This document shows positions 1 through 24,527 of a DNA stretch of 25,673 nucleotides, piece after piece. Made by a program: the position numbers and the translations under genes. Position 1 is the first letter of the stretch. Every line of letters starts with the position of its first letter. This DNA comes from Mageeibacillus sp. UBA1243 (GTDB lineage: Bacteria > Bacillota > Clostridia > UBA1212). The notes beneath the pieces are model-generated. The model saw nothing but the letters and a program-made list of their open reading frames with translations. It had not been told where the DNA came from and made no database searches. The stretch is taken from assembly GCA_002308595.1 (NCBI GenBank), contig DBWH01000055.1:20493-46165 (forward strand). The letters run 5' to 3'.

Positions 1-1064
1 TTGACGGCGTTCTCGCACAGGGTGCTTATCAGTCTGCGCACAGCCTGCTCGTCGCCGCAGAGAGTGAGGTTTTCCTCCGCGTTTACAATCAGGTTTTTGC
101 CGTTGAACTCCGCCATACCCGCAAACGGAGCGGCGACGTCCTCAACCACGTTCGAGAGATTGAACTCGCTGCGCTCAAGGTGGGAATCAGCCTCATCCAT
201 ACGCGAAAGATAAATCAGCTCATTGACGAGCTTGCGCATATTTGATACCTGCTTCTGCGTGCCGTAAATCCACTCGTTTTGACCTATATCCATCGAAAGG
301 ATATCCATATTTGCCGAAATGACCGTGAGAGGAGTTTTGAGCTCGTGCGAGGCATCGGCAATGAATCGCTTCTGGCTGTCCCACGCTTCCTGCACAGGCT
401 TCATGCTGAGAGAGGCGAGCCTGATGCTGATGAGGGCAATGAAAACCATGATGACAACGTCCGCGCATATAGTGGCGGTGACGGTGTTCTTAATCGTTTT
501 GACGGTTTCGGCGCGGCTTGTGAAGGCAATCGCGGTGCCCCTGAAAGTCGATTTTTTCGAGAAGGCGAGGTCGTCGTTGCCTATCTTGATGACGCCGCTG
601 CTCATGCCGGATGATTCGATTTTGTCGAGGGCGGTTTCGAGCATGTCGTCGTCCATTGAGGCGAAGAATTCCCTCTTCTGGATGATGCTGCCTTCACTGT
701 CAAGAAGAACAGCAAAGGCGGCTCCGTCGATGGTGTTCGGGAGTGCATTGCCGTCAAACCCGCGCGGATTATCCTCTCGCTGCGTTATTTCGCCGTCGGG
801 GAGGGGTGGGACGGTGCCGTCGGGTGTGGATTCGGGGTCGGTGTAGAACTCGCCCCAGCGCTTCTGGTTGTTTCCGAAGACCCATTTGATCTCCATGTTC
901 GGCGCCTCGGAGACGTATCTGATGGCGACATTGAGCCTCGACTGAAGCTTCGAATTTGCGCTGTTTGACGCAAGAACACATATTCCGATGCTCACGGCTG
1001 CAAGAAGCACGCCGACGAATATTAAGTTTGTCAGAACGATTTTATTCCGTAGCTTTCTTAGCAT
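1..1064 (-). CDS. Sensor histidine kinase (3' end beyond window)
   Basis: This is the membrane sensor kinase of a two-component system, expected to autophosphorylate and pass phosphate to the adjacent regulator. Reading the minus strand from ATG at 1064 gives about 354 codons without a stop. There is a first membrane segment near residues 9-28 and an extracytoplasmic sensor region to about residue 185. A second membrane segment lies around 189-212, followed by an H-box with SHELKTPLT, where H240 is the predicted phospho-acceptor. The frame leaves the window at the start of the N-box (CENAV), so the ATP-binding half (N, G1, F, G2) is missing only because of the window edge. The start lies inside the last 23 bases of the response regulator, which implies translational coupling. 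The sensor domain has no recognisable family, so the stimulus is unknown. Confidence 0.9.
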   Translation of the reverse strand, partial: MLRKLRNKIVLTNLIFVGVLLAAVSIGICVLASNSANSKLQSRLNVAIRYVSEAPNMEIKWVFGNNQKRWGEFYTDPESTPDGTVPPLPDGEITQREDNPRGFDGNALPNTIDGAAFAVLLDSEGSIIQKREFFASMDDDMLETALDKIESSGMSSGVIKIGNDDLAFSKKSTFRGTAIAFTSRAETVKTIKNTVTATICADVVIMVFIALISIRLASLSMKPVQEAWDSQKRFIADASHELKTPLTVISANMDILSMDIGQNEWIYGTQKQVSNMRKLVNELIYLSRMDEADSHLERSEFNLSNVVEDVAAPFAGMAEFNGKNLIVNAEENLTLCGDEQAVRRLISTLCENAV

Positions 1065-1734
1065 TGGCGGTCTCCAGCATGTATCCCTTTTTCTTGTAAG
1101 ATGCGATCGTGTATTCGGACTGAATGAAGCTGAGTTTTTTGCGGACGAAGCTCATGTATGCCTCGACGTTTGAGTCGCCCGCGTCGGAGTTGAAGCCCCA
1201 GACCTTGGTGATGAGCTCCTCCTTGGAGACGGGGACGTTTTTCCTGAGGAGCAGAAGCTTCAGAATCTCGGCCTCCTTGTAGTTTAGGTTGATGCTCTTG
1301 CCGTTTTTCGAAATCTCGTTTACGGACGAGTTGAACGTGAAATCGCCGAACTCTGTGACCTCGGCAAGCACTTCCGTATAACGCCTCGTAAGAGCCCTGA
1401 TTCTTGCGAGCAGCTCGTTGGGGGAGAACGGTTTTGTCATGTAGTCGTCCGCGCCGCTGTCAAGGCCGGTGATCTTGTCCTTGATGGTGTCCTTGGCGGT
1501 GAGCATGATGATGGGAGTGCTGACGGAGCTTTCGCGCAGCTTTTTCGCGACGGTCATACCGTCCATTTTCGGAAGCATGACGTCAAGAATGATCACGTCG
1601 TAAATGCCGCTGAGCGCGTAGTCAAGGCCGTCCTGACCGTCGGCGACCGTGTCAACCATGTATTTCTTTTCCTCGAGTATCTGCTTGAGGGCTTTTGCCA
1701 GCCTGAGCTCGTCCTCAACTATAAGAATCTGCAT
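1042..1734 (-). CDS. OmpR/PhoB-family response regulator
   Basis: This 230-aa DNA-binding regulator is the partner of the overlapping kinase. The receiver domain (residues 1-118) has the acidic pair E7/D8, phospho-acceptor D51 in IILDVMLP, T79 in MLTAKD and K101 in YMTKPF, all standard. A winged-helix output domain occupies about residues 125-222, ending with the typical YKKKGYML wing. The start is supported by AGGAG seven bases upstream. It is transcribed away from the alpha-galactosidase, with a good promoter on the same strand at 1844-1873. Targets cannot be read from the sequence. Candidates are the divergent sugar hydrolase and the O-acetylation or transport genes downstream, but no paired operator repeats were found to prove that. 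Confidence 0.95.
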   Translation of the reverse strand: MQILIVEDELRLAKALKQILEEKKYMVDTVADGQDGLDYALSGIYDVIILDVMLPKMDGMTVAKKLRESSVSTPIIMLTAKDTIKDKITGLDSGADDYMTKPFSPNELLARIRALTRRYTEVLAEVTEFGDFTFNSSVNEISKNGKSINLNYKEAEILKLLLLRKNVPVSKEELITKVWGFNSDAGDSNVEAYMSFVRKKLSFIQSEYTIASYKKKGYMLETANAKKATE

Positions 1735-1843
1735 AAGAAAACTCCTTCCGAAATCCTGGACCGGCGATGCTTCAACGGGCCCCGTGCCCGCATATCATTT
1801 ATGCGAAAGGCGCTTTTATACGCTGAAGATTACCGGTGTCTAC

Positions 1844-1873
1844 ATTATAGCGCATTTGCTGAAAAAATGCCAA
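1844..1873 (-). promoter_or_regulatory. Sigma-A promoter of the two-component genes
   Basis: On the minus strand there is TTGGCA (1873-1868), an 18-bp spacer and TATAAT (1849-1844). This matches the consensus at 5/6 and 6/6. It would give a leader of about 100 nt before the regulator start at 1734. That leader includes a small inverted repeat, GCATA/TATGC, around 1790-1805. Confidence 0.65.
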
Positions 1874-1938
1874 AATAAAACTTCCGTAACGGCGCCTGAA
1901 ACCGTCATGTCCGCAGGTCCTTTGACGAACACGCCAAT

Positions 1939-2010
1939 GTGCCCCGGGGCGCCGCGCATCCTGCACCCCGGGGCGCCGTGCCTCCCGCGCCCCGGAGCGC
2001 CCCTTGCGGC
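1939..2010. repeat. Three tandem 24-bp GC-rich repeats
   Basis: Three back-to-back 24-bp units (1939-1962, 1963-1986, 1987-2010) share a core of CCCCGGGGCGCC, or CCCCGGAGCGCC in the third. They lie in the divergent intergenic region between the regulator and the alpha-galactosidase. The third copy overlaps the putative -35 of the alpha-galactosidase promoter. Each core is itself nearly palindromic (CCCCGGGG). They could be regulator binding sites or simple slippage repeats. No convincing gene was found in this 425-bp gap (1735-2159). Confidence 0.7.
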
Positions 2011-2032
2011 AAACTCTTTTTTGTGGTATAAC
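2004..2032 (+). promoter_or_regulatory. Candidate promoter of the alpha-galactosidase gene
   Basis: TTGCGG (2004-2009), a 17-bp spacer and TATAAC (2027-2032). The -10 is good and the -35 is weak, so an activator may be needed. The third 24-bp repeat covers the -35 hexamer. Confidence 0.45.
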
Positions 2033-2159
2033 CCCTTGTAAAAGCAAACGCGCGGCTTTGCGGCGGCAAAAGCGCCTGCGGCAGTTCAACCCAAGGAAAG
2101 CCGCGCCGTTTAACGCAAACCGCGCAAAACCACAGAAAGATCATTTTTCCGGAGGCCCC

Positions 2160-4220
2160 ATGGACAATATCGCTGCGACAAAAGACGATTTCAGCCTGAA
2201 TGAAAACGTGTTCCGCTTTGACGGCAGGGACTTTTCATCCGTTCCGATCTCGTTTACCTACAACGGAACAGACTTCAGAGGAATACCGGAGTTGTTCTCG
2301 CCCGCCGTGACGGAAATCAGGGCAGACCTCGGCGCGGGCAAAAAGACAACCGTTATATCGGGGCGCAGCGAGGACGGCCTTGAAGTCGTGGCGCATTTTA
2401 ACGAATACGATAACTTCCCCGTCTGCGAGTGGCTGTTCTTCTTCAGCAACGCGGGACAGGTCAAGCACAAACCGTTCGGCGGCGAGGAGATACAGCTCTC
2501 CGCAATCGACGCCGACGCGGCCGAAAACACCGGAATACTTGAGAATATCAAAGTCGGCGACAGGGTCATCAAGGGCTCAAACCCCGTTCTGTACCACGGC
2601 AACGGCGACACCTGCACCGATGAAGGCTATGAAATGACGAAAGACCCCGTTGACAGGGAGCTTGTGTATGCGCCGCTTTTCGGCGTGTCATGCTGCGGCG
2701 CGTCCCCTTACTTCAGGCTCATTTTTGACGAGTGGTGCGTTAACGTTGCCGTCGGCTGGCCGGGAGGCTGGGAGGCGGGCTTCACACCCGAAGAGGGCGG
2801 CGTGAGGGTCTACGCAAAGCAGAAGAACTTTAGGGCATACCTGAAGCCGGGCGAGACCGTGAGGACTCCGAGACTCACGCTGATGTGTTCCGTTGGCGGT
2901 GAGGACAGAAGCAGAAACATGTGGAGGCGATGGATGTTCGCGCACATCGTGCCGAAGTTTGAGGAGAGGCCAATCAGGCCGCTTCACTGCCTGCACACGT
3001 GGATGATTGACGGCAAGGAGGAGTTCACCGGTGTCACCGAGAAAAACCAGCTTTTTGCCATTGACGAGTACCTGAGAAAGGGTCTGAGACCTGACGTGTG
3101 GTGGATTGACGCGGGATGGTACCCCTGCGACGGACACTGGGTGGTCACCGGAAACTGGTGGCCGAACCCCGAAAACTTCCCCGACGGACTCGCCAAGGTA
3201 GGCGAAAAGTGCAACGAAAACGGCATAGCGCTCCTGCTCTGGTTTGAACTTGAGAGGGTGCACGTCGACACCTGGCTTGACAAAAACCACCCCGAGTGGA
3301 TAATCCGCGAGCCCGACGAGGGCAGAATGAACGTCCCGTCGTTCAACCTTCTTAACCTTGGCGATCCCGAGTGCCTGAACTGGGCGATTGAGACGATCGA
3401 CGGCATTATAAAAGAGGCGGGGGTTAAGATTTACCGCCAGGACTTCAATTTTGCACCCGCCAATGCATGGAGGAGCAAAGACGAAAAGGACCGCGACGGA
3501 ATGACGGAGAACGCGCACATCGTCGGCTACCTGAAGCTCTGGGACAGCCTGCTGGAGAGAAATCCGGGCCTTTTGATCGACTCGTGCTCGTCGGGCGGAA
3601 GGCGGAACGACCTTGAAACGATGAGGCGTGCGGTGCCTTTCCACTATACAGACGTCGGCTACGGTGTACACCCCGTAAAGCAGAAGCAGCACAGGATGAT
3701 GTTCGAGTGGATACCGTATTTCAGAGCCCACGCGCAGAACTGGGACGACGAAAACGGAGACTATACGCCGGGTGCTCACAGGCCGATTGACGAGTTCGCG
3801 TACCACTGTGCGATGGCACCGGCTCTGACGTCAATGATCGAATACTACGACAGCGAGGAGCTATTCTCGCTCGGAATCAAAATGACAAAGCTCTGGAGGC
3901 GCGCGGCAGCGTACATGATCGCGGGCGACTACTACCCGCTCACCGAGTGCAGAAAGTCAAACGAAGATTACTACGCAATGCAGTTTGCAAGGCCCGAAGA
4001 GGGCGACGGCTTCGTACAGGTGGTCAGAAACACCAAGGCGGAGGCGGAGGAGTTCACACTTAAGCTCAACGTCGACGCCGACGCCGTCTACACGCTTGAG
4101 GACGGCGAGACCGGCGAGCGATTCAACGTAAACGGCGAAGACCTGAAGAACGGCTTCAGCGTAGATATACCTAAAAGAAGCGGAATTCTGCTGTTCTATA
4201 AAAAGGCCGGCGAGCAGTGA
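2160..4220 (+). CDS. Alpha-galactosidase-like glycoside hydrolase (GH36/GH27 clan)
   Basis: This is a predicted retaining glycosidase that removes terminal alpha-galactose (for example from raffinose- or galactomannan-type oligosaccharides), 686 aa. The start is ATG at 2160 with CGGAGG just upstream; the reading frame is open further 5', but that stretch has no ribosome site and crosses the promoter. It has an N-terminal beta-sandwich (about residues 1-270) and a TIM barrel beginning near WWIDAGWYPCDG (D317). The probable nucleophile is D428 in YRQDFNFAP. The DSCSSGGRR motif follows, and D498 in YTDVGYG is the probable acid/base. A C-terminal beta domain closes the protein. There is no signal peptide, so it should act in the cytoplasm on imported sugars. 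The RQDFN nucleophile motif differs from the KWDMN of classic GH36 enzymes, so substrate specificity is uncertain. Confidence 0.85.
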   Translation: MDNIAATKDDFSLNENVFRFDGRDFSSVPISFTYNGTDFRGIPELFSPAVTEIRADLGAGKKTTVISGRSEDGLEVVAHFNEYDNFPVCEWLFFFSNAGQVKHKPFGGEEIQLSAIDADAAENTGILENIKVGDRVIKGSNPVLYHGNGDTCTDEGYEMTKDPVDRELVYAPLFGVSCCGASPYFRLIFDEWCVNVAVGWPGGWEAGFTPEEGGVRVYAKQKNFRAYLKPGETVRTPRLTLMCSVGGEDRSRNMWRRWMFAHIVPKFEERPIRPLHCLHTWMIDGKEEFTGVTEKNQLFAIDEYLRKGLRPDVWWIDAGWYPCDGHWVVTGNWWPNPENFPDGLAKVGEKCNENGIALLLWFELERVHVDTWLDKNHPEWIIREPDEGRMNVPSFNLLNLGDPECLNWAIETIDGIIKEAGVKIYRQDFNFAPANAWRSKDEKDRDGMTENAHIVGYLKLWDSLLERNPGLLIDSCSSGGRRNDLETMRRAVPFHYTDVGYGVHPVKQKQHRMMFEWIPYFRAHAQNWDDENGDYTPGAHRPIDEFAYHCAMAPALTSMIEYYDSEELFSLGIKMTKLWRRAAAYMIAGDYYPLTECRKSNEDYYAMQFARPEEGDGFVQVVRNTKAEAEEFTLKLNVDADAVYTLEDGETGERFNVNGEDLKNGFSVDIPKRSGILLFYKKAGEQ

Positions 4221-4243
4221 GTGAACCGTCCGAAAGCAGATAA

Positions 4244-4273
4244 TTGAAGCAGCTTCAGCACATCTTTTATACA
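4244..4273 (+). promoter_or_regulatory. Weak candidate promoter before hslO
   Basis: TTGAAG (4244-4249), an 18-bp spacer and TATACA (4268-4273), only 15 bases before the start codon. The -35 lies within the odd palindrome TGAAGCAGCTTCA. If transcription started here the leader would be very short, so readthrough from upstream is equally possible. Confidence 0.25.
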
Positions 4274-5199: not shown

Positions 5200-5263
5200 C
5201 ATTGGCGGCAGGCTGAGCCTGTAACACGGACGTGACAAACCAATCTGATAACGATAATCTTCC

Positions 5264-5342: not shown

Positions 5343-6875
5343 ATGGAATTCGCATCGGTACTTTTCATAGAACTGTTCCTGCCGGTTGTTCTTATCGTGT
5401 ATTACCTGCTCGGCTTCGTAAAGGCTGAGCGGATAAGGATGACCCTCAGAAACAGTTTTCTGCTGTTTGCAAGCCTGCTGTTCTACGCGTTCGGCGGCAT
5501 CAGAGAGCTTTTCATCTTCACCGCGATCATCGCAATAAACTTCATTGCCGGTTTCGTGATGGGAAAGATCAGACCGGAGAAGAAGGGCGCGAGGAGGGCA
5601 GTCTTCCTGACTTCTCTGCTCCTCGACATTGTGACGCTGATCGTTTTCAAGTACACCGCGACCGTTGTCAACTTTGTTGACGTTGTCAGGAAGGGGAGCG
5701 GCGTAAAGGACGCCCTGGAGGGACTTCTGCGGTTTGACGGCAGCGGATTCTTCAGCCTTGCCGTGCCGCTTGCGATTTCGTTCTTCATTTTCCAGGCGAT
5801 TTCCTACATTTCCGACGTTTACTATAACAAAATCAAGCCGACCAAGAACTTCCTTACGTTCTCGCTCTACATGACGCTGCTCTGCCAGCTCACGCAGGGC
5901 CCGATCATGCGCTTCGGCAACCTTGGCGGTCAGATTGAGAACAGAGACCACTCGCTCGATCAGTTCGTGTACGGCATGAAGCGCTTTGTGTACGGTCTTG
6001 CCAAAAAGGTGCTTATCGCCAATGTGGCCGCCGAGCAGGTCAAGATCATTTTCGCGACAAGCGTAGACCGGGTGAAGGACACACCGACTCTCTTCGTCAA
6101 CGTCAGCGAGATGGGCGCTCCTATAGCATGGCTCGGTCTCATACTTTTCACAATCCAGATTTACTACGATTTTTCGGGCTACACCGACATGGCAATAGGC
6201 GTCGGCAGCATGCTCGGCTTCAAGATCGACGAAAACTTCAACTACCCTTACACATCGCTCTCCGTGCAGGAATTCTGGCGCAGGTGGCACATCTCACTGT
6301 CGTCGTGGTTCAAGGATTACGTGTATATTCCCCTTGGCGGCAGCAGGTGCAGCAAGGCGAGGGCATGCCTTAACGTGGGCATCGTTTTCCTCCTGACGGG
6401 CGTATGGCACGCGAGTGCGGGTCTTTTCACGTTTGTCATCTGGGGCCTGATTTTCGTCGTCGCAAGCATTGTCGAGAGGCTTTTCCTCGGAAATCTCCTT
6501 AAAAAGAACCCCGTAAAGCCCCTCAACTGGATCTACACGATGCTCGTCGTCATGATCGGCTGGGTATTCTTCAGGGCGGAGAACCTTGATTATGCCGGCA
6601 AGTTCATCGGCCAGCTCTTCTGCTTCCACGGCTCTGTCGCGGAAAGGCCGCACTACGTTCTTGACTATCTGTCGGTCAAGGTGGTTCTCGCGCTCGTGCT
6701 CGGCATCCTTCTCTCGGGCTTCCTCCAGAGGCTCCTGACGCGTCCGCACGAAAAAATCGCCAATAAGCTTCCCTTCAGAATCGTCGAGCTCGTCTTTATC
6801 ATTTTCGTATTCGCGGTCTGCATGATCGAGGTTGTCGGAGGCTCCTTCGCCTCGTCAATCTATCTCAAGTTCTGA
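5343..6875 (+). CDS. MBOAT-family O-acyltransferase (AlgI/PatA/DltB-like)
   Basis: This is a polytopic membrane protein of 510 aa, the usual AlgI-like length. It is predicted to move acetyl groups across the membrane for O-acetylation of a surface or secreted polysaccharide. Visible family marks are YYDFSGYTDMAIG, NFNYPY, the FWRRWHISLSSWFKDYVYIPLGG block with its conserved histidine, and FLLTGVWHAS with the second, catalytic-type histidine. About ten hydrophobic segments are spread over the chain. Start: ATG at 5343 after GGAAGG. It is followed 15 nt later by the AlgJ/X-like gene, the standard partner. Which polymer is acetylated cannot be read here; no glycosyltransferases are in the window. 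Confidence 0.93.
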   Translation: MEFASVLFIELFLPVVLIVYYLLGFVKAERIRMTLRNSFLLFASLLFYAFGGIRELFIFTAIIAINFIAGFVMGKIRPEKKGARRAVFLTSLLLDIVTLIVFKYTATVVNFVDVVRKGSGVKDALEGLLRFDGSGFFSLAVPLAISFFIFQAISYISDVYYNKIKPTKNFLTFSLYMTLLCQLTQGPIMRFGNLGGQIENRDHSLDQFVYGMKRFVYGLAKKVLIANVAAEQVKIIFATSVDRVKDTPTLFVNVSEMGAPIAWLGLILFTIQIYYDFSGYTDMAIGVGSMLGFKIDENFNYPYTSLSVQEFWRRWHISLSSWFKDYVYIPLGGSRCSKARACLNVGIVFLLTGVWHASAGLFTFVIWGLIFVVASIVERLFLGNLLKKNPVKPLNWIYTMLVVMIGWVFFRAENLDYAGKFIGQLFCFHGSVAERPHYVLDYLSVKVVLALVLGILLSGFLQRLLTRPHEKIANKLPFRIVELVFIIFVFAVCMIEVVGGSFASSIYLKF

Positions 6876-6890: not shown

Positions 6891-8783
6891 ATGAACAAAA
6901 AAGTTGCAAATACAGTCTTTTCAATCGTTGCCGTATGCATCTTTGCGGTCATTCTGGCGCTGCCGTGGATACTGTCGCTCGCGGGACTCGACAAGGGCAA
7001 ACCAAACGAAAACAGAGAGCTTGCGACGTTCCCGACAGAGTTTTCGAACGATTACCTCGCCAAGCTCAACACTTACATGAACGACCACTCGCCGATGCGT
7101 AAAACGCTTCTTGCTTTTAAGCAGAGCGTTGACGAGAAGGCGCAGACATATTATACGAACCTCGTTGAACCTATATACGCGATGCTCGAGGAAAAAGCCA
7201 ATCCTTCAACTCCGGCACCGGCGACACCGGGTCCCGGCGAGACTCTGAATCCGGGTGAGACAGGCGAGATTCCTCCCGAAAACACGCCCGACTTCGGCGG
7301 CCTTTTCGGCGACGAGACCGAGGAACCGACCGAAGAGCAGCCGACGCCCGTTCCGGAGACCGATACACCTGCCCCGACGGACACACCGACTCCTACTCCC
7401 ACAACGACTCCGACTGCAACTCCAACGCCTACACTGACGCCCGGCGGAACGGTTTCTCCCGGCGGCGATGAGACCCCGACACCCGCGGACACGCCTACAC
7501 CGACTCCGACCGCAACACCTACACCCACACCGACTCCGACTCCCACACCGACTCCGGAGCCCTGTCAGCACACTTTCGGCAAGACAAAGGTGACGAAACA
7601 GGCCGACTGCATCCATAAAGGAACCGGCGAGCAGGTCTGCACGAAGTGCGGCGAGAAACAGACGGTGGAAATCGCGGCGCTCGGCCACAGCTACAGCGTA
7701 ATCAGAACGCAGCAGGCGTCCTTTGCGCACGACGGCTATTCGCTTGAAAAGTGCTCAAGATGCGGCACCGCCAATGTCAAAGACGTTGTCTACAGGACAA
7801 GCGTTCCCGATTTCTTCAAAAACCAGAAGAGAATAACCTACAGCGGCTCAGGCTTTAAGGGTATGCACGACTGGTACTTCTATGCAGGGGACAACAGCGT
7901 TGACTATTTCGAAGGAAACAATGTGCTCACGGACGAAGAATACGACTACTGGATGAAGACGTACGAGGCTCTGCACGAGGAGTGCGAGAAGAGAGGCATT
8001 GCCGTCGTCTACCTGATTCCGCCGAACAAGGAACAGGTCTATGCGGAGTACATGCCGTCAGGGCTTAAGATCACGTCCAACTCCGCAAAACGCCAACCCG
8101 TTTTCGTGCAGTATTTAAAGGACCACAACAGTCCCATCAGGTATCTGTATCCGATCCAGGAACTCAAAACCGCCAAGATCCTCTATGAGACATACTACCA
8201 GCAGGATACACACTGGAACGAAGTCGGCGGCTTTGTCGCGGCCATGCAGATATGCAAACTGATCGGCGTGCCGACGACACCCATCCAGAACGTCGGCGTT
8301 TCGACCTTTGACAGTAGCGGAGGCGACCTTGTCAGCCTCGGCGTCGGCAGCGCAACGACTTACACCTGCTATTCGATAAGCTACAAGCCCGACGTTTCGT
8401 ACACCACGACGTACTACACAAACACAGTCACCTCCGCAGGTTACGACAATCCCACGTCCGAACTGAGAGTTCATGAGTCGACTGTAAACAACAACAGAAA
8501 GTGCGTCATCATCGGCGACTCTTTCAGGCACTCTCTCGCGCCTTTCCTCGCCAAGGATTTCAGGAAAGTCACCGTCGCGCACAGGGGAGACTTCAACACG
8601 ATCTCAAAGAGCAAGAAAACCGACAACGGCGCCGTCGTCAACTGCGGCAGACCTATAATACAGGACGCGCTCTCCGAGCTTAAAACAGGAGACGTTCTCA
8701 TTGTCATGGCCGTCGAAAGATACGACTCCGCCAATGTCTCAATGGCGGAGACCATCACCGACTTCATGAGGAATCTGCCCTGA
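6891..8783 (+). CDS. AlgJ/AlgX-like (DHHW/SGNH) O-acetylation protein with PT linker
   Basis: This is the extracellular partner of the upstream MBOAT protein, 630 aa. I chose ATG at 6891 (GGAGG eight bases upstream) over GTG at 6882, which lies on the ribosome site. Parts in order: an N-terminal membrane anchor (about residues 8-31); the family entry motif NRELATFP and a D-H-S-P-M-R stretch; a Pro/Thr-rich linker (about 104-224); a Cys/His segment starting at C225 (CQH, CTKC, LGHSY, CSRC), like repeats in gut Firmicutes surface proteins; then an SGNH-like domain with DTHW (D439, H441) and GDSF (D543, S544). These last residues fit the AlgX/AlgJ catalytic set. The linker and Cys insertion between the entry motif and the catalytic domain are unusual compared with AlgJ. 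Confidence 0.85.
7341..7559 (+). repeat. Low-complexity Pro/Thr-coding repeat
   Basis: Short degenerate repeats of the CCNACN type encode runs of Pro-Thr within the AlgJ/X-like gene, in two blocks (about 7366-7440 and 7471-7559) split by a Gly/Pro-rich spacer. It reads as an extended wall-spanning or O-glycosylatable linker. Such tracts often change length between strains. Confidence 0.85.
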
Positions 8784-8842: not shown

Positions 8843-9129
8843 CGCTATATAACGGGGCGGTTAAACCGCCGCTCCCGCCGGAAAGCTTGAAACCGGCAAG
8901 GCCGGCCTTAGGGTCAGGGAAGAGGGCGGGAGGCATCGGCGTGTCCGAAATGCCCAAACCGCGGTGCCGGGCCTCAAGGCCGGTATTTCTGCTAATTTAG
9001 CGGAAAACGGGTGTTATGCCGTGAAATGCGCCTTGGCGGTGTCTCTGCCGGGGCTGTTATTTATGCTAACAGTAACCAAAAATCGAGCCGAAAAAGCTTG
9101 AATTTTCGGACATATTTGCCAAAAAAGCG
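8843..9129. other. Structured intergenic region without a recognised gene
   Basis: No open reading frame with a ribosome site was found. The region is rich in inverted repeats: GGCGGT/ACCGCC around 8856-8870; CTCCCGCC at 8872-8879 pairing with GGCGGGAG at 8925-8932; CCGGC/GCCGG around 8893-8905; and CTGTTA (9054-9059) with TAACAG (9067-9072). It does not match tmRNA, SRP RNA, RNase P RNA or a riboswitch that I recognise. It could hold a small RNA, or operator sites for the promoter just downstream. Confidence 0.4.
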
Positions 9130-14551: not shown

Positions 14552-16684
14552 ATGAAAAGTAAATTCAGAAAAATTCTGTGCATCGCTCTGACATTGGCGT
14601 GTTTGGTTTCGGTTTGCACGGTAATTCCGAGCTCCGCGGCAACACCGTATTCGAACTACTTCATGTCTCTGGTTGACCCTTACAGCTGGAGCCTTCCTAC
14701 ACCGGAAGCTTACCAGGTCAGCCGGGTTGTCGATTTCCCCGACAAAGAACACGGAAAACTCCTCAATCCTGAGGATATGTTTATCGGCCCTGACGGCAGG
14801 ATTTACATTGCCGACAGCGGAAACAACCGAATCGTAATCCTGAAGAGCGACCTCACGTTTGACTTCGCCATCACGGGTTATGAGGAGGACGGAAGTAAAC
14901 TCAACAATCCTACCTGCGTATTCGTTGACGACGACGGAACGATTCTTGTTGCCGACTACGGTAACAAGCGTCTCATCGAGTTCACGAAATACGGCAACTT
15001 CAGGTTCGCCTACCCGACTCCTTCGAGCGACATCCTTTCCGAGGACTTCAACTACCAGCCTCAGCGCGTTGTTAAAGACCAGAAGGGCTACATCTACGTC
15101 TGCTCCGTCGGTGACTCGAACGGTATTCTGATGCTCTCGTCAGACGGTGAGTTCAGAAACTACTTCGGTACAAACAAGGTTGCCCTGACTTTCTGGGAGA
15201 GTATCGCAAGGATGCTCTGGTCAAGAGAGTCCCGTAAAGGTACGGTCGTAACGCTTCCTTATACTTTTAACAACATATTCATCCACGACGGATTCATCTA
15301 CGCTACGACAACCGGTTATTCGGCGGCCCAGATGCGTAAGATCAATCCTGCAGGTTCTGACGTTCTCTACGGCGGAAGGGACTTCTCGGACTTCGGTCTT
15401 CTCAGAAACTCCGCAGACCTCCAGAACTTCATCGACGTAACTGTCGACAATGATTCCAACACGTACGTTATCGACGCAACTTACGGACGTATCTACGAGT
15501 ACGACGAGTGGGGCAGAAACCTGTTCGCTTTCGGTACCGTAGGAACGGGCTACGGCCAGTTCTCACTTCCGAAGTCGCTCGAAGCTGACGACCAGGGAAG
15601 AATCTACGTTCTTAACGGCGGAAACAACACCATCTACGTTTTCGAGCAGACCGAGTTTGCAAAGCTTGTTCACCGGGCCAATAAGAACTACAGTAACGGT
15701 ATCTACGAAGCTGTCGACAATCCGAATGACGGCTCCAAGGAGGACAACGCTTTCTTCCAGTGGACAAAGGTTAAAGAAGAGGACAACTTCTACAGCCTTG
15801 CTCTCCAGTCCATAGGACAGATCCTCTGGAGAAAGGAGAGATACTCGGAAGCGCTCCGCTACTTTGAAATCGCCGGAGACACCGTAGGTGCTTCGAGCGC
15901 ATTCAAAGAACTTCGCGCGAACTTCCTTGGCGATTACTTCTCAATCATCGCATCCGTGACCGTCGGTCTTCTCGTAGCGCTGCTCGTTTTCAAGAAACTC
16001 AGAAAACGCTACAGGATGAAGCATCCGAGAACGGTTGAGAAGAAGCCGAACTTCATGCAGAAGATCGGTGCATTCATAAAGAATATGGTTCACACGGCGA
16101 CTCACCCGATTGACGGATTTGAGGATATCAGATACGAAAACAAGGGTACGTACCGTGATGCCATCATCGTGATTCTTGTATATGTTGTTACGCACTGCCT
16201 GTCATTGGCGTGCACAAGCTTCATATACAGGGGAGGACAGTCCATCGAGTTTATTAACTGGGGGACAGAGATACTTTGGTGTCTGCTCCCGTGGGTTGTA
16301 GTCTGCGTCGTAAACTACGGCGTCACGACGATCCTCTACGGCGAAGGCAGATTCAGGGATGTTGTCATCGGCGGCGCATACTGCCACGTACCGTTCATCC
16401 TCATCGAGCTCCCGCTCGCGATCATCACCCAGGGTCTTACGCTTCAGGAAGCACCGCTTGTCAGCATCGTAGGATCCATCACCACGGCGTGGGTAGTGGT
16501 TCTCGTATTCATGTGCATGAAGGGCGTCCACGGCTTCAACCCGCTTAAGGCAGTGCTTGTATTCGTGCTGACTCTTGCCGGAGTTGCCGCTGTTGCAGTC
16601 CTGTTCATGATCGTGAGAGGACTCTTCGAACAGATGGTCGATTTCATCGTTCAGTTTGCAAAGGAGTTGAGCTATCTTGTTTAA
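14552..16684 (+). CDS. NHL-repeat propeller protein with Yip1-like membrane domain
   Basis: This 710-aa protein is not a transporter component by sequence. I prefer ATG at 14552 over 14546, because GGGAAGGGGG ends 6 nt before the former and directly abuts the latter. A signal peptide runs to about residue 30 (SSAA). NHL-type beta-propeller repeats follow (about 65-370), with signatures such as DGRIYIADSGNNRIVI, VADYGNKRLIEF and GQFSLPKSLEADDQGRIYVLN. A short TPR-like helix pair follows (WRKERYSEALRYFEIAGD), then a membrane helix near 460-482, and a multi-pass Yip1-like domain (about 515-710) opened by HPIDGFEDIRYENKGTYRDA. Propeller outside and Yip1 domain in the membrane is the likely topology. 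It may organise the transporter or contact glycan; its role is not known to me. Confidence 0.82.
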   Translation: MKSKFRKILCIALTLACLVSVCTVIPSSAATPYSNYFMSLVDPYSWSLPTPEAYQVSRVVDFPDKEHGKLLNPEDMFIGPDGRIYIADSGNNRIVILKSDLTFDFAITGYEEDGSKLNNPTCVFVDDDGTILVADYGNKRLIEFTKYGNFRFAYPTPSSDILSEDFNYQPQRVVKDQKGYIYVCSVGDSNGILMLSSDGEFRNYFGTNKVALTFWESIARMLWSRESRKGTVVTLPYTFNNIFIHDGFIYATTTGYSAAQMRKINPAGSDVLYGGRDFSDFGLLRNSADLQNFIDVTVDNDSNTYVIDATYGRIYEYDEWGRNLFAFGTVGTGYGQFSLPKSLEADDQGRIYVLNGGNNTIYVFEQTEFAKLVHRANKNYSNGIYEAVDNPNDGSKEDNAFFQWTKVKEEDNFYSLALQSIGQILWRKERYSEALRYFEIAGDTVGASSAFKELRANFLGDYFSIIASVTVGLLVALLVFKKLRKRYRMKHPRTVEKKPNFMQKIGAFIKNMVHTATHPIDGFEDIRYENKGTYRDAIIVILVYVVTHCLSLACTSFIYRGGQSIEFINWGTEILWCLLPWVVVCVVNYGVTTILYGEGRFRDVVIGGAYCHVPFILIELPLAIITQGLTLQEAPLVSIVGSITTAWVVVLVFMCMKGVHGFNPLKAVLVFVLTLAGVAAVAVLFMIVRGLFEQMVDFIVQFAKELSYLV

Positions 16685-19427
16685 TAAGAAATCGAAAAAA
16701 GAGAATAATAAAGACGCTGCTCAAATCGAACAAGTTCTGAACGAAAACGAGATCGGAGCAGAGAATGCCGCAGAGAATGCGGAAGCAGTTGAAAACACCG
16801 AAACTGTCAAGAAGACAGAAGAGGTGAAGACAAGCGTTTTCAGAGCTTCAATGGACGATGACGAGAACAGAAAGAATCTCCACATCGACAAGGAAGAAGC
16901 TGAAAAATTCCTCGAAAAACAGAGGAAAAAGAAACTCAGAAACAGGATCATCATCACGACCGTTTCGGTCATCGTGGTTCTCATTGCCATCTTCGTTGTC
17001 TACAAGGTGGTGTTCGGCGGAAACGTCGGCGTCATCAGATTCAGCGACAAGTGGATTGTTGAGAAAGACCCGAAACCCGTCGGAGCTGCCATCAAGACAA
17101 ACGCAGGCATGACCGAGATCGCATCCGTCAGCAACGCGATGGGCGGAACGACGACCATTAAGTTCTCGCCCGCTGATTCGCTCCTCATCCTTGAGCTTAC
17201 AAACGCCAAGGGAGACAAGGAGACCATCAGAAGCTGGCCTGCTCCTCTTGAGAAGGAAGTTGATCAGAAAACCATTGGCGATGAGTATCCGAAATACGCC
17301 AAGAACCACGACATCGTTTCCTCGCTCGTAAGGCTCGGCTACACGGCTTCCAACCTCGACGGCGGTAAGGATTTCGGTATCAACCAGGTTCCGGGCGTCA
17401 AGATTGAGTACTACTACATCGAGAACGGTTTCAAAGCCAAATACACTGTTCCGATCGAGGTCACCAAGACCAACAGCGACGGCGACACTTATAAAGTAAC
17501 TTATGAGTTCAGCCTCGGCGTTGAGTTCTACCTCGACAAAAACGGCGATCTTATCGTAAACGTTCCGAAGAAGGACGTTATCGAGACAGAGACCGAGGAC
17601 CAGTACGACAAGAATACTGACGAGATGCCGAGAGTTGCGTCCATCGCCGTTCTTCCGTTCATCAACGCAAGAAGGCAGGGCGACAACGGCTACTACGTAA
17701 CTCCTGACGGATCGGGCGGACTTACATACTTCAACGTTCCCCGTATCTCCCAGTACGACGAGTACCAGAAGCGCATCTACGGCTACGACGACATATTCGA
17801 CGTCTTCAACTACCCGAACATGACCAACGAGACAATCTGCCTCCCTGCGTTCGGCGCTGTTGACGGCGGCAAGAGACTCACCTGCTTTGCTGTTGAGAGT
17901 GAAGCCAACGCTTCAATCCTCATGGGCCAGCCGGGCATGAAGAACCTCGACTTCTACTACATTACGTATCTGTTCAAGTGGAGAGAGTTCTACCAGGCCA
18001 AGATCTCGAACAGCGGTCAGTCGTACACATTCCTTGAGATCCCGTCGGGCATTGGCGATTTCACAATGAAATACTCCTATACCATCGACAACGACACAAC
18101 CTACTCATACGTTGACGTCGCCAAGGACATCAGGGAGTTCATCGTAAACAAGTGGTATGAGGATAAGAATTCGGACAACCCGGACTACGACTACCTCGAC
18201 AAGGTGGACGTAAACTCGCCCGAAAACAAGGATCAGAATCCGGACCTCATCAACCTCAAGATTTTCATTGCCGATATCAACAGAGCTTCGGTTTCGTGGT
18301 GGCCGACTTATAAGGTCATGACCACTTTCGGACAGGCCAAGAGCATAGTCACGAAGACTGCACAGGAGGGTCTCGGAAGGATTCGCTACTCGCTCCTCGG
18401 ATGGCAGCAGGAAGGCTACTACGGCAACCCGATGAAGAAGTTCTCCATCAGCAACTCGGTCGGAGGAAAGGGCGGTCTCAAAGACCTCAACTCATACGCC
18501 AAGAAGAACGAGGCCACATTGGCGGCAGACGTCAATATGCTCCTCATCTACGGCTCGCCGAAGGGCGCCAGCCTCAGACAGGCTGTTGTAAAGAACCCGG
18601 GTACGTTCTACGTGAACTACAAGGTTGTCAACACTGCAGGTGTTTTCGACAGGTACACGGATTACTACTACATGAGCCCGCTTTACTACAACTACAACAT
18701 GCTCAGCAAGGATATCAACGGCCTCAAAGACCTCGGTTTCAAGAACGTTGACCTCCAGCAGATGGGCAACCTGCTCTACACCGACTACAACAAAGAGAAC
18801 GCGCTTCTCCGCCAGCAGGCACTTGAGTACTACCGCAAGTGGATGACTCAGTACAAGGCGAAGTTCGACACGGTTTCGGTATATTACGGTTACGAGTATG
18901 CGGCTTCCGTTGCCGACAACATCCTCGACATTCCTACCGAGTCGTCCAAGCTCTTCATCGTTGACGAGTCAGTGCCGGTTCTCGAGATCGTTTACCACGG
19001 TCTGGTCGACTATTACTCCAACGCGGTGAACAGGTCCTCCGACTACACGAAGAGCATTCTGAGATCAATCGAGTACGGCGCGTTCCTGACCTTCGAAGTT
19101 ACCAACAACACAACCGAAGGACTCAGATACACCCGTTACAACTCTCTGTTCAAAGCTAAATTCGACGACCTCTACGCATCGATCGTCAAAGGCTACAATA
19201 TCGCCAATAAGGCTCTCGCGCCTGTTGCAAACTGCGATATTACCGGCCACTTCTGCGTAGACGGCGAGAGGGAAGGCGACGTTTACTGCACAGAGTACAG
19301 CAACGGCACAAAGATTTATGTTAACTACGGCGACACCAGCAAGGAAACTCCTGACGGAAAAGTTCCTGCTTTCGGAATCGGCATTTGCACGTCTGACGGC
19401 AAATTCGAAACCCTTAACGTGAAATGA
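16677..19427 (+). CDS. DUF5696-like type II membrane protein, possible glycosidase fold
   Basis: This is a 916-aa protein. The start is TTG at 16677, with AAGGAG ten bases upstream, overlapping the previous gene by 8 bases. An acidic, Ala/Glu/Lys-rich cytoplasmic segment (1-90) precedes one membrane helix (91-113); the remaining 800 residues should be outside. Layout and late motifs (DESVPVLEIVYHG, LRSIEYGAFLTFEVTNN) recall the DUF5696 family that accompanies carbohydrate ABC genes in Firmicutes; this is from memory, not a search. An N-terminal beta-rich part and a C-terminal part compatible with a TIM barrel suggest a surface glycoside-processing role, but no catalytic acid pair can be assigned with confidence. 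Position between two importer sets supports a function in feeding substrate to them. Confidence 0.6.
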   Translation: MFNKKSKKENNKDAAQIEQVLNENEIGAENAAENAEAVENTETVKKTEEVKTSVFRASMDDDENRKNLHIDKEEAEKFLEKQRKKKLRNRIIITTVSVIVVLIAIFVVYKVVFGGNVGVIRFSDKWIVEKDPKPVGAAIKTNAGMTEIASVSNAMGGTTTIKFSPADSLLILELTNAKGDKETIRSWPAPLEKEVDQKTIGDEYPKYAKNHDIVSSLVRLGYTASNLDGGKDFGINQVPGVKIEYYYIENGFKAKYTVPIEVTKTNSDGDTYKVTYEFSLGVEFYLDKNGDLIVNVPKKDVIETETEDQYDKNTDEMPRVASIAVLPFINARRQGDNGYYVTPDGSGGLTYFNVPRISQYDEYQKRIYGYDDIFDVFNYPNMTNETICLPAFGAVDGGKRLTCFAVESEANASILMGQPGMKNLDFYYITYLFKWREFYQAKISNSGQSYTFLEIPSGIGDFTMKYSYTIDNDTTYSYVDVAKDIREFIVNKWYEDKNSDNPDYDYLDKVDVNSPENKDQNPDLINLKIFIADINRASVSWWPTYKVMTTFGQAKSIVTKTAQEGLGRIRYSLLGWQQEGYYGNPMKKFSISNSVGGKGGLKDLNSYAKKNEATLAADVNMLLIYGSPKGASLRQAVVKNPGTFYVNYKVVNTAGVFDRYTDYYYMSPLYYNYNMLSKDINGLKDLGFKNVDLQQMGNLLYTDYNKENALLRQQALEYYRKWMTQYKAKFDTVSVYYGYEYAASVADNILDIPTESSKLFIVDESVPVLEIVYHGLVDYYSNAVNRSSDYTKSILRSIEYGAFLTFEVTNNTTEGLRYTRYNSLFKAKFDDLYASIVKGYNIANKALAPVANCDITGHFCVDGEREGDVYCTEYSNGTKIYVNYGDTSKETPDGKVPAFGIGICTSDGKFETLNVK

Positions 19428-21344: not shown

Positions 21345-21356
21345 GGGGGAGTGCAC

Positions 21357-22799
21357 ATGAGAAAAACATTAAAAGTTATAATCGTAGTTGCGCTTGCAGT
21401 CATTCTTGCCCTGAGTGCATTCGGATGCTCCAAAAAGAAGAAGGGCGACACGGCTAAGGCGACGCCGAGGCCGAACCCTGAGAATCTCATTGGCGAGATC
21501 AAGCTCTCGGGATACCTCTATTCCGACATGGCCAAGAACCTTGACAACTACAAAGCCGCGTTCGTGGCTGACTACCCGGGCGTTGAAATCATGATTGACC
21601 TCGACCGCGTATCCGCAAAACAGTATTTTGAAGCTCTCGACAATATTGCCGAGACAGGCGACCTCTCATCCGCAGGCGACGTTATCCTGGTGGATGCGGC
21701 GAGAATGGAAAAATATGCCCAGGAAGGATTGATCATAGACCTTTCGTCTTACATCGGTACCGTCCTCAATTTTGAGACGTACAAGTACATCAACCCCGCC
21801 AAGGACCTTCTCCCCGCAGCATACGATGCATGCTTCTACAACGGAAACATCTACATGTGTGCAATCGAGTACAACCACAAGTTCGTGCTCCTCAACTACT
21901 CGCTCCTCGAAGCCGCAGGTTATTCGTTCCCGACAGACGACTGGACATGGAACGACATGATCGAGATGGCTGAGACGCTCAAGAGCAACGGTGTTGAAAC
22001 TCCTATCGCGATGGACTACACCGATTACGCAATCTGGGGCGCGTTCGCAAGAAGCTACGGCCAGGACGTCTATGACTACGTCGGCAACTCGGAAGACACC
22101 AAGGAGCTCAATCTCACTCATCCGGACGTTGTGAAAGGCCTTGAAGATCTCTGCGATCTGATAAATCCCGAAAGAGGACTTGTCGACTGCATCAACTCCA
22201 AGGACATCGACCCCGCGGACATCTCTAAGTACGCTTTTATCATTGCCGATCACGAGGACATAGCTGTCTGGAGCGAGACGCTTCTTGCAGCCGAGAACAA
22301 TGAAGCAGAAGGCAAAAAGTGGACCTGGGACTACATTCACTTCCCGCGCTGGGAGGACGAAAATTACGAGGAAAACCACGTATACCATCAGGCAATTGCC
22401 GCCAATGTGTACGGCTTCGCAGTCGTGAACCACGGTGAAGACGAGGAGCACAACGAGGACTTCTACCGCACCTGCGCATACCTTGCCCTCTACGGAACGG
22501 TTTCAAAGGCATCGCTCGGATATGCGAACGAAGGACAGTCGGTTCCCGCCAACGCCGAAACGAACAAAATGAAGTTCTGGCGCGAATATCCGAAAGCCGG
22601 CAAGAACTCATCGGTTTTCTCGAACTTCGCCGACACAGCTGACTTTGCAGGCTCGCTCGGATGCTTCATGCCCACGATGTCCGCAGAGGAAATCGACATC
22701 ACCTACGCGATTGAAGGTTATCTCACAGGCACAAGAACCATGAGAGAAAGCCTCCAGACACTCCAGGAGAACGCTCAGGCAAGTTGGAAAACAAGATAA
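21357..22799 (+). CDS. Extracellular solute-binding lipoprotein (second importer)
   Basis: This is a 480-aa sugar-type binding protein. ATG at 21357 is preferred over GTG at 21351 because AAGGGGGAG (21343-21351) lies five bases before it. The signal peptide ends in a lipobox, AFGC, with C24 as the lipid anchor, followed by a charged spacer. The mature part shows a typical family 1 binding-protein pattern (AGDVILVDAARMEKYAQEG, YNHKFVLLNYSLLEAAG, DDWTWNDMIEMAETL). It is the last gene of the operon, directly followed by a strong hairpin. It differs from the operon's first binding protein in anchoring and size, so the two importers probably take different ligands or act at different steps. Confidence 0.92.
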   Translation: MRKTLKVIIVVALAVILALSAFGCSKKKKGDTAKATPRPNPENLIGEIKLSGYLYSDMAKNLDNYKAAFVADYPGVEIMIDLDRVSAKQYFEALDNIAETGDLSSAGDVILVDAARMEKYAQEGLIIDLSSYIGTVLNFETYKYINPAKDLLPAAYDACFYNGNIYMCAIEYNHKFVLLNYSLLEAAGYSFPTDDWTWNDMIEMAETLKSNGVETPIAMDYTDYAIWGAFARSYGQDVYDYVGNSEDTKELNLTHPDVVKGLEDLCDLINPERGLVDCINSKDIDPADISKYAFIIADHEDIAVWSETLLAAENNEAEGKKWTWDYIHFPRWEDENYEENHVYHQAIAANVYGFAVVNHGEDEEHNEDFYRTCAYLALYGTVSKASLGYANEGQSVPANAETNKMKFWREYPKAGKNSSVFSNFADTADFAGSLGCFMPTMSAEEIDITYAIEGYLTGTRTMRESLQTLQENAQASWKTR

Positions 22800-22829
22800 G
22801 GCTTAACCAAACAGCTTATTAAAGAAGTC

Positions 22830-22864
22830 ACACCTTCGGGCCGCCAAAAGGCGCCCGAAGGTGT
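22830..22864 (+). terminator. Terminator hairpin at the end of the transport operon
   Basis: The 11-bp perfect arms ACACCTTCGGG (22830-22840) and CCCGAAGGTGT (22854-22864) continue inward through a one-base bulge into CGCC/GGCG closed by an AAAA loop. Only a short T-run (TTT) follows. The hairpin overlaps a GTG at 22861 that would otherwise look like a start for the next gene. Confidence 0.75.
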
Positions 22865-22896
22865 TTGGCGATAAAAAAAGGAAAGACAGGGATGAA

Positions 22897-23475
22897 ATGA
22901 CCGACGAAGTAATTGAATCTTTCATTAAAGCCAGGAAAAACAAAGGCAGAACTTTGCTCTACGTACTGATTTTTGCGGTGACGATGCTCATTGACGTTGT
23001 CATCTTCATGTTTTTCTGGCTCATCGGATTATACCTTTCGATCATAATAACAGGCCTCGCCGCCGTCTTGGTTATTATTCTGATGAGGCGCGGCAGACTT
23101 GAGTACGAATTATCCATCGTAAAGGGCGAGATGACCGTTTCGGAAATCAGAAACCAGGCGATGCGCAAAAGGCTTTTGTCATTTGACATAAGGGATATCG
23201 AAAACTTCAGGGAGACAAACCTTGATGAAATCGCTGCCTTAGATTCCAAATACAACAGGGAGAACCCTCACAGGCTTCTTTATTGCATAAGCGATGATCC
23301 GGAGGCAATCTATTTCTTCACCGCGAGGGCAAAAGAAGAGGGCGTGACCTATGATATTTATATGTCGCCGGACGACAGAATACTGAAAGAAATTGCCTCT
23401 AAAAATTTCGGGGCAAAAAGGGTGCTCTCGGGGCGGCTTGCGGCCGCGGCAGGGCAGAATCAGAAAGAAAGTTAA
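22897..23475 (+). CDS. DUF6106-like two-pass membrane protein
   Basis: This is 192 aa from ATG at 22897. The in-frame GTG at 22861 is rejected because it lies in the terminator stem; the purine-rich AAAAAAAGGAAAGACAGGG supports 22897. Two adjacent membrane helices (about residues 20-62) are followed by a soluble cytoplasmic domain. The stretch LEYELSIVKGEMTVSEIR, followed by KRLLSFDIRDIENF, resembles a pattern I associate with DUF6106 proteins of Clostridia. This is from memory and unverified. Function unknown. It lies 5 nt before the transglutaminase-like lipoprotein gene and is probably co-transcribed with it. Confidence 0.7.
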   Translation: MTDEVIESFIKARKNKGRTLLYVLIFAVTMLIDVVIFMFFWLIGLYLSIIITGLAAVLVIILMRRGRLEYELSIVKGEMTVSEIRNQAMRKRLLSFDIRDIENFRETNLDEIAALDSKYNRENPHRLLYCISDDPEAIYFFTARAKEEGVTYDIYMSPDDRILKEIASKNFGAKRVLSGRLAAAAGQNQKES

Positions 23476-23480
23476 AGACT

Positions 23481-24527
23481 ATGAAAAAGGTAAAGTTTGC
23501 GGCGGCCGCATTGGCGGTTTCGATGCTTTTCGCAGCGACAGGCTGCTCGCTCATAACGATAACGGACACAAAGAGCCCGTCAGCGACGAAGGCTCCCACA
23601 GAGGCTCCGACCCCGTATCAGACACCTGCGCCGAAATACGAGGTCAGCTTTGATGCGGACGAGGTTTTTGAGACCGAGATTGAGAGAACGGCTGCGGATA
23701 GGATTGACGGCTTCATTAAAGGCGCTGTGGCCCTCATGAACACCATGAACAAGCGGCTGTGCGGTGAACTTGACCCTTATGCATACGATTCGCCTGTGCT
23801 TGCCAAAGACAAGCTTAAGAACGACGAGGAAGTAAAAATTTACGAGGACATCGAAAGATGCGCAGAAGGGTTCCTTGACTACCGCGTCGACCATCACGAA
23901 TACGGCAAGGACATGTTCCTGCCTGTGACCAACGCCGTCGACGCGCTCAGAATTGACCGCCCCGAACTGTTCCTCTACTGCGACATGAAGGGCTACACGG
24001 ATGCCTACGGCACGTCTTACACGCTTTCCTACTACATGCCCAACGAGTGGCTGGCACACGTTACGGACGACAAAGAGGCCGTCAAGGAGGCCGTGGCGCT
24101 TTACTACAAGGTTGTCGACAGGATTATCGCCAAGATGCCTGACGGCCTTGACAACTACGAGAAGTGCTGCTACTTCATGCTCGTTATAACGCTCTGCACC
24201 GAATACGACGTTGAGCAGACGACCCTGCTTGAAATGTACCAGGCCTACAACGTTCTTGTTAAGGGCAGCGCGGTTTGTAAGGGCTATGCGGACGCGCTGC
24301 TGGAGCTTATGCGGCGTGCCGGCATAAGGTGCGAGGTTGTGACGGGCACGGCTCCGAGCGAGGGCCGGCACGCCTGGAACAAGGTCTACTCGGACGGCAA
24401 GGTGTATTACGTTGACGTGACCTGGTACGACACCGACAGGGACATTGGCGATTTCGAAGACGGCAAAATCGACTATATTTTCATGACGGAAGAGGACCTT
24501 TTTGTGAGCGGTTACGTGCCGGATTGA
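23481..24527 (+). CDS. Transglutaminase-like lipoprotein
   Basis: This is a 348-aa secreted protein, lipid-anchored through C22 (lipobox AATGC), followed by a Pro/Thr/Ala-rich linker. The C-terminal domain has the transglutaminase/protease-like triad in order: C266 in GSAVCKGYADAL, H297 in GRHAWNKV and D312 in YYVDVTWYD. All three are intact, so catalysis (peptide cleavage, cross-linking or wall remodelling) is plausible. In many gut Firmicutes such proteins are cell-surface associated. The middle region (about 60-240) is alpha-helical and unassigned. The ribosome site (GAAAGAAAG) is weak, suggesting coupling to the gene just upstream. Confidence 0.85.
   Translation: MKKVKFAAAALAVSMLFAATGCSLITITDTKSPSATKAPTEAPTPYQTPAPKYEVSFDADEVFETEIERTAADRIDGFIKGAVALMNTMNKRLCGELDPYAYDSPVLAKDKLKNDEEVKIYEDIERCAEGFLDYRVDHHEYGKDMFLPVTNAVDALRIDRPELFLYCDMKGYTDAYGTSYTLSYYMPNEWLAHVTDDKEAVKEAVALYYKVVDRIIAKMPDGLDNYEKCCYFMLVITLCTEYDVEQTTLLEMYQAYNVLVKGSAVCKGYADALLELMRRAGIRCEVVTGTAPSEGRHAWNKVYSDGKVYYVDVTWYDTDRDIGDFEDGKIDYIFMTEEDLFVSGYVPD

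Follow-up and report, generated by a model that had tools for sequence, protein, structure and literature searches.

The window studied here, a stretch of 25,673 bases on contig DBWH01000055.1 of Mageeibacillus sp. UBA1243, carries a short recurrent word on both strands, in coding as well as in intergenic DNA. The octamer CATTGGCG was found 18 times, 11 times on the forward and seven times on the reverse strand, and no other 8-mer of the window scored higher. The expectation from dinucleotide shuffling is 0.76, and none of 100 shuffles reached 18 copies (mean 0.76, largest 3). Genes were predicted with a simple script of our own, without a standard annotator; by this prediction 16 of the 18 copies are genic and two are intergenic. 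The genic copies are read as GCC-AAT (seven), ATT-GGC (five) or TTG-GCG (four), three of the six possible readings being used. A second form of the word, CCTTGGCG, occurs 12 times (0.83 expected), and a further variant, TATTGGCG, three times. All positions are given in Table 1.

The initial annotation of this stretch had reported 18 exact copies on both strands with less than one expected, different reading frames, copies in two intergenic regions and four ATTGGCG variants. All of this was recovered, the variants within 2 bases of where they had been placed; three of them are TATTGGCG and one is GATTGGCG, at most a weak variant (4 intergenic copies in our genome sample). A single word had been described. 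The word is real, but it is one of the pair CATTGGCG/CCTTGGCG, and the second form had been overlooked. Likewise, the extended form A-CATTGGCG-D held only on its right side: C follows the word in 1% of 353 copies, whereas a preceding A, present in 10 of the 18 window copies, falls to 26% among 506 sampled copies, whose 5' neighbour is better described as 'rarely C'.

Table 1. Copies of the word, its second form and its one-base variants in the window
Feature	Position	Strand	Context
CATTGGCG	1062..1069	+	within response-regulator gene 1042-1734 (-), reading GCC AAT
CATTGGCG	1932..1939	-	intergenic
CATTGGCG	3458..3465	-	coding, GCC AAT
CATTGGCG	5200..5207	+	intergenic, adjoins hslO stop codon (directly 3')
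CATTGGCG	6017..6024	-	coding, GCC AAT
CATTGGCG	7769..7776	-	coding, GCC AAT
CATTGGCG	8729..8736	-	coding, GCC AAT
CATTGGCG	9863..9870	-	coding, GCC AAT
CATTGGCG	10115..10122	+	coding, ATT GGC
CATTGGCG	14592..14599	+	coding, TTG GCG
CATTGGCG	16203..16210	+	coding, TTG GCG
CATTGGCG	17273..17280	+	coding, ATT GGC
CATTGGCG	18050..18057	+	coding, ATT GGC
CATTGGCG	18517..18524	+	coding, TTG GCG
CATTGGCG	21488..21495	+	coding, ATT GGC
CATTGGCG	22400..22407	-	coding, GCC AAT
CATTGGCG	23509..23516	+	coding, TTG GCG
CATTGGCG	24443..24450	+	coding, ATT GGC
TATTGGCG	6758..6765	-	enriched one-base variant
TATTGGCG	13742..13749	+	enriched one-base variant
TATTGGCG	19202..19209	-	enriched one-base variant
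GATTGGCG	12430..12437	-	at most weak variant
CCTTGGCG	1491..1498	+	
CCTTGGCG	3191..3198	-	
CCTTGGCG	3356..3363	+	
CCTTGGCG	5921..5928	+	
CCTTGGCG	6332..6339	+	
CCTTGGCG	8549..8556	-	
CCTTGGCG	9031..9038	+	
CCTTGGCG	11069..11076	-	
CCTTGGCG	15925..15932	+	
CCTTGGCG	17204..17211	-	
CCTTGGCG	18119..18126	-	
CCTTGGCG	21797..21804	-	

The genome to which the window belongs (G000; 1.82 Mb in 68 contigs, 77% complete) contains CATTGGCG 764 + 785 = 1549 times, about 850 copies per Mb, compared to 56 copies of the reversed word, which serves as the control. In a 390-kb sample, 355 copies of CATTGGCG, 288 of CCTTGGCG and 79 of TATTGGCG were counted, where an order-2 model expects 10.4, 16.5 and 8.2. Among sampled copies, those with one mismatch (1219, a count that takes in CCTTGGCG and TATTGGCG) outnumber the exact ones (507). 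Of 485 sampled genes, 72% contain at least one of the three forms. Within 567 kb no gap between them is longer than 4.6 kb, and word-free mobile islands were rejected on this ground. The spacing of CATTGGCG is compatible with random placement (coefficient of variation 0.95, Kolmogorov-Smirnov (KS) p 0.12).

The initial annotation had named a codon-shuffled expectation as a possible explanation of the excess. We ran this comparison in 333 kb of predicted coding DNA and the excess remained: 271 copies of CATTGGCG were observed versus 32 ± 5 when synonymous codons were shuffled within genes, and versus 49 ± 5 (48 in a repeat) when the bases at codon junctions were kept as well. In 61 kb of intergenic pieces, 83 copies stand against 1.4 expected (near 59-fold); these pieces carry 7-base margins, and 78 copies are wholly intergenic while 6 straddle a gene edge. 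Moreover, the copies make use of rare codons. Outside the words, AAT accounts for 23% of Asn, TTG for 3.5% of Leu and CCA for 2.7% of Pro codons in the sampled genome, which bears out the initial remark on the rarity of AAT and TTG. CATTGGCG is a real, dense, genome-wide word beyond codon bias, as had been proposed when it was compared with uptake sequences and the cyanobacterial HIP1 (highly iterated palindrome).

Taking the forms together, the motif can be written as (C/T)(A/C)TTGGCG with soft flanks. Most of the variation falls on the first two bases, TTGGCG being the least variable part. The 24 one-base variants of CATTGGCG differ strongly in intergenic DNA, where CCTTGGCG (23 copies) and TATTGGCG (14) are the commonest and the other 22 reach 0 to 7 copies each. 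Around 77 intergenic copies of CATTGGCG, preferred bases extend 5-6 positions outside the core: upstream a G at -6, a purine at -4, a T at -3 and almost no C at -1, downstream G, T or A but no C, followed by Y, W, T and, weakly, C. The downstream flank is common to the copies of CCTTGGCG (31 intergenic copies).

Positional conservation was assessed as the presence of the exact word in aligned DNA of a relative, with nearby 8-mers offset by whole codons as controls. Of 36 aligned copies of CATTGGCG from G000, 21 recur unchanged in G004 (80.6% identity), compared with 85 of 312 controls; for G003 (74.2%) the figures are 12 of 27 copies and 43 of 249 controls. From G003 to G004, 9 of 14 copies and 19 of 136 controls recur unchanged. 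In these two of three sampled congeners, the copies are held in place more than the neighbouring 8-mers. For CCTTGGCG the values are 14 of 31 versus 71 of 272 in G004, 9 of 47 versus 48 of 433 in G003 and 4 of 18 versus 13 of 166 in G001. None of 18 copies of CATTGGCG was exact in G002 (70.9%; controls 12 of 173), none of three in G005 and none of ten in G006. At the protein level, 89 orthologue pairs drawn from G002, G005, G006 and G007 were evaluated. Of the residues encoded inside words, 74 of 156 were identical compared to 91.8 expected for their residue types (flanks 616 of 1093); the words therefore arose at a cost to the protein or in tolerant positions.

Judged by HslO, the nearest named relatives are metagenome-assembled genomes (MAGs) from the rumen, 'uncultured Ruminococcus sp.' RUG12790 (90%) and Clostridia bacterium RGIG10266 (80%), which is consistent with the earlier placing in Clostridia. 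Their contigs of 6.2 and 8.6 kb hold four copies of CATTGGCG each; exact copies in aligned positions were 2 of 5 in RUG12790 (controls 4 of 40) and 0 of 2 in RGIG10266. Strong enrichment is restricted to four of 31 genomes of the order, all from one genus: G000, G004 (1653 copies), G003 (1203) and G001 (908), each 27 to 29 times its own control. Much lower counts were obtained for G005 (152, control 55), G006 (109, control 48) and G002 (61, control 84), and the remaining 24 genomes range from 0.25 to 2.6 times their controls. Among 86 further genomes of the class, CATTGGCG was raised in five, at 4 to 11 times the controls, with raw counts of 402 (G112), 323 (G058), 299 (G091), 253 (G086) and 167 (G092). 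Two of them look ordinary and were rejected as carriers: 100 kb of G112 gave GC-rich words only, and four readable stretches of G058 held 8 coding copies versus 5.3 by codon shuffle. As a separate observation, the raw count of 167 in G092 (family f50, genus g67), which lies outside the order of the studied genus, compares with a control of 15; a word may exist elsewhere in the class.

The congener G002 shows no excess of CATTGGCG and instead contains CRTTCCCG 1937 times (control 155), a word present 38 to 511 times in the other 28 genomes searched. In its coding DNA, CGTTCCCG and CATTCCCG were counted 135 and 69 times versus 29 and 14 after codon shuffling and versus 54.5 and 25.6 with junctions kept; the intergenic counts are 15 versus 3.4 and 14 versus 3.5. 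G003 carries two words side by side: besides CATTGGCG, the form CATTGGTT occurs 40 times in coding DNA (2.8 by codon shuffle) and in 13 of 17 sampled loci. CATTGGCG is a species-level dialect, and CRTTCCCG stands in its place in one congener. G005 and G006 have a weak, mixed excess of CATTnnCG type, which we do not claim as dialects. The sampled stretches of G006 hold a degenerate CATTnnCG set (middle bases AT, GC, AC, AA or GA) that exceeds the junction-preserving null about 3 to 4-fold; this may be a dialect that is loose or has decayed.

We regard it as quite possible, although only tentatively, that the word labels self DNA in the manner of the DNA uptake sequence (DUS) and the uptake signal sequence (USS), being kept by sequence-biased uptake and recombination. 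In such a system, the DNA-binding part of an uptake machine would favour fragments with (C/T)(A/C)TTGGCG and, more weakly, certain flanking bases. Conspecific DNA would thereby enter the cell and recombine more frequently, and either this bias itself (molecular drive) or selection in favour of exchange would spread and maintain the copies. A shift in receptor preference could then move a genome to a new dialect, such as CRTTCCCG in G002 and, in part, CATTGGTT in G003. This reading starts from the number of copies, the excess over codon and composition nulls, the soft flanks, the random spacing and the presence of competence-type genes, together with positional conservation in two congeners and a different word in a third. 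From these we infer uptake as the putative cause, a pilus or pseudopilus part as the candidate receptor and drive, rather than another benefit, as the presumed maintainer. We liken the word to DUS and USS for its density, its flanks, its conservation in place and its dialects, but claim no membership, which would require the defining uptake bias and a receptor that reads the sequence. With somewhat greater reserve, the whole may be seen as a genus of rumen Clostridia with sequence-specific uptake of self DNA and species dialects, namely CATTGGCG/CCTTGGCG, CATTGGTT in G003 and CRTTCCCG in G002.

USS is built of a core with softer flanks, as is the word described here. The DUS of Neisseriaceae, with about 1900 copies in 2.2-2.3 Mb, is comparable in number; dialects, two dialects within one genome, an excess of one-mismatch over exact copies and intragenic as well as intergenic placement are described for it (PMC3630211). 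Differences are the sequence itself, the host, which here belongs to Clostridia, the lack of inverted pairs at terminators and the change of the G002 word in mid-word (GG to CC); furthermore, a ComP homologue was not identified here, none having been sought by sequence. The USS of Pasteurellaceae is similar in density, and one reading orientation is commoner in genes there too (PMC12616744, PMC2346458). For Hin-USS 500-800 copies per Mb are given, so that the density of CATTGGCG is at or slightly above this range (PMC12616744). The word described here differs in lacking a gene-end bias and in being known from sequence alone.

The initial suggestion to look for competence genes was followed. 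ComEC with an open frame and a ComEA-type HHH_3 protein are present in six of six genus members, and DprA in all five searched (G005 was left out). An ATPase of PilB/GspE type (>450 bits to PF00437) was found in all four strongly enriched genomes. It is absent from five other family genomes (G002, G005, G006, G007 and G008), where only a weaker type near 200 bits was detected; the completeness of G005, G006 and G008 is 69-79%. In G000, G003 and G004, the gene order comprises three pilin-like genes, a protein in the position of PilM, a prepilin peptidase, a PilC/GspF-type protein and the ATPase. The pilin-like genes are presumably such by their N-terminal prepilin-type motif; their proteins had no Pfam match and, in NCBIfam, one weak match to ComGE (E 0.0033). 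The PilM-position protein (402 residues; in the G000 operon at L011 10864-12072 (-)) matches no Pfam or NCBIfam family and was detected in three of 14 genomes searched, G000, G003 and G004, but not in the fragmented assembly of G001.

Several results weigh against an uptake sequence. Inverted pairs at terminators, a common though not a defining trait, and a bias towards gene ends are described for known uptake sequences (PMC3630211, PMC2346458). Here, no inverted pairs at terminators were found (14 pairs closer than 60 bp among 355 copies, in mixed orientation), and 347 copies are evenly distributed along genes (KS p 0.98). Copies of G000 are no more conserved in G001 (74.3%) than controls (4 of 18 versus 28 of 151), and CATTGGCG has a mild strand bias in G000, about 60:40. 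The excess of the G002 word is real, yet weaker than that of CATTGGCG in G000, and certain genomes from other families also carry CRTTCCCG at 3 to 5 times the control level (G024 463 versus 86, G011 259 versus 64, G021 458 versus 144). With regard to the machinery, the ATPase scores 567 bits with the PilB and GspE models of NCBIfam alike, short of the curated cut-off of either, and 'pilus' is therefore our own reading. In each of the three species the three pilin-like ectodomains are acidic (isoelectric point 4.4-5.0), whereas a DNA receptor would be expected to be electropositive. The best fold match of the one pilin that was modelled (3-sequence alignment, mean predicted local distance difference test score 75) had E 0.035, with none at 0.001; these results speak against the operon pilins as the DNA receptor. 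G002 has its own word without the PilB/GspE-type ATPase, only a Tad-like ATPase below the Tad model cut-off being present. In G012, which belongs to another family, the ATPase is present and about 39 kb (four pieces, two overlapping) show no comparable word, so that the ATPase was rejected as a general predictor of a word. Its association with the word may go back to one event within one clade. Finally, apart from Neisseria and Haemophilus, nearly all competent species are considered to take up DNA irrespective of its sequence (PMC12040237).

Apart from uptake, a HIP-like origin deserves most attention, although we consider it unlikely. Here a methyltransferase would read all or part of the word, methylation-linked repair would create and restore it, and a changed methylase specificity would yield a new word; no uptake receptor is needed. 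HIPs are reported at 1000-2000 per million bases, with deviations concentrated at the first and last base, and alternate HIPs with a matching methylase replace HIP1 in some genomes (PMC4390886). The density, the spread over the whole genome, the other word in a relative and the variation at the end, here the first two bases, are all reminiscent of this system. However, HIP1 and its alternates are palindromes with a matching methylase, while CATTGGCG is not a palindrome and neither of two methylase families gave a convincing candidate. PF01555 methylases were not found in G000, G001, G003 and G004 (one was found in G002). PF07669 matches in the genus are marginal at 19-23 bits, the best reaching 25.9 with neighbours in G000 (cut-off 25.3), with none in G003. 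When the genes predicted in 567 kb (31%) of G000 were scanned for motifs, five matches and no clear DNA methylase emerged; two of the five we take to resemble methylases of RsmD and PrmC kind. With the C5, Dam and type I families outside the search and G000 77% complete, these negatives make a HIP-like origin only somewhat less probable. The preferred bases 5-6 positions beyond the core speak against it as well, though HIP1 flanks also vary (PMC4390886).

Another genome-wide role, for instance as the site of a nucleoid or segregation protein, would fit the dense and random placement on both strands in coding and intergenic DNA. In our judgement it would be unusual for a structural site to differ in sequence between congeners, and no candidate protein is at hand, none having been sought beyond the families named; we consider this role distinctly improbable.

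Less probable still, and in our view a slim chance, is a Chi-like site read at broken ends by an enzyme of AddAB/RecBCD type. Chi sites are over-represented non-palindromic octamers that vary by species (PMC8022716), as the word does. With the majority gene strand as a proxy, in loci of clear gene direction, CATTGGCG is commoner on that strand in all four enriched genomes (with:against 228:153 in G000, 72:42 in G003, 64:46 in G004 and 17:8 in G001; intergenic DNA of G000 48:24). A strong leading-strand polarity was not found, however, the bias being about 60%, and within genes codon usage by itself predicts a bias towards the same side (null 35:12, observed 219:175). No bias was seen for CCTTGGCG in G000 (132:150), for the CRTTCCCG words of G002 (97:95) or for CATTGGCG in intergenic DNA of G004 (8:8). 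The values of CCTTGGCG in the other enriched genomes are 45:30 (G003), 39:34 (G004) and 9:8 (G001). We also know of no Chi sites with a comparable intergenic enrichment or with extended flanks.

A by-product of codon or codon-pair usage is refuted by the coding and intergenic counts and the rare codons given above, although the mild enrichment of CATTGCCG, CATTGACG and CATTGTCG in G000, in coding DNA only, means that some codon context exists; the CATTGmCG words were rejected as motif members as their enrichment is confined to coding DNA.

No report of CATTGGCG or of an uptake sequence in Clostridia was found in the literature, mainly open-licence papers, and a search by the word itself returned unrelated papers, apparently with primers. 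A screen for an uptake sequence in Veillonella is reported to have found no word of at least 10 bp present at least 100 times (PMC5397411). Should the word serve as an uptake sequence, it would be a novelty in this part of the bacterial tree, resembling the 'own DNA' labels of Neisseria and Haemophilus, and would reveal a self-recognition system in a lineage where uptake is regarded as sequence-independent; with a word unrelated to those labels and with its dialects, Clostridia would then provide an independent case. If the word is linked to methylation instead, HIP1 would have a counterpart outside cyanobacteria that is not a palindrome. Different words within one genus offer a natural experiment for finding the reading receptor or enzyme, and also allow one to ask whether drive or a benefit maintains them. 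Under either reading, the word may act as a species mark in rumen metagenomes.

Further repeats were noticed during this work. The G003 samples L089-L098 contain a TTACTTATTA(C) repeat with 27 copies in 17 kb of intergenic DNA and a GC-rich GCGGCACCCC repeat with 14 copies, and in intergenic DNA of the G004 samples L069-L078 there are repeats centred on TGCGTAAAGA (13 copies) and on GCAAGTCGCG (8 copies). In Butyrivibrio hungatei XBD2006 (L153), a 20.9-kb locus holds 10 copies of GAGCGTGA versus 0.4 expected. A 20.9-kb locus of a Deinococcales MAG (L216, JANXTZ010000077.1) carries CTCGAGAA 29 times and AACTCGAG 30 times, each with about one expected, which together form a HIP1-like word centred on the palindrome CTCGAG.

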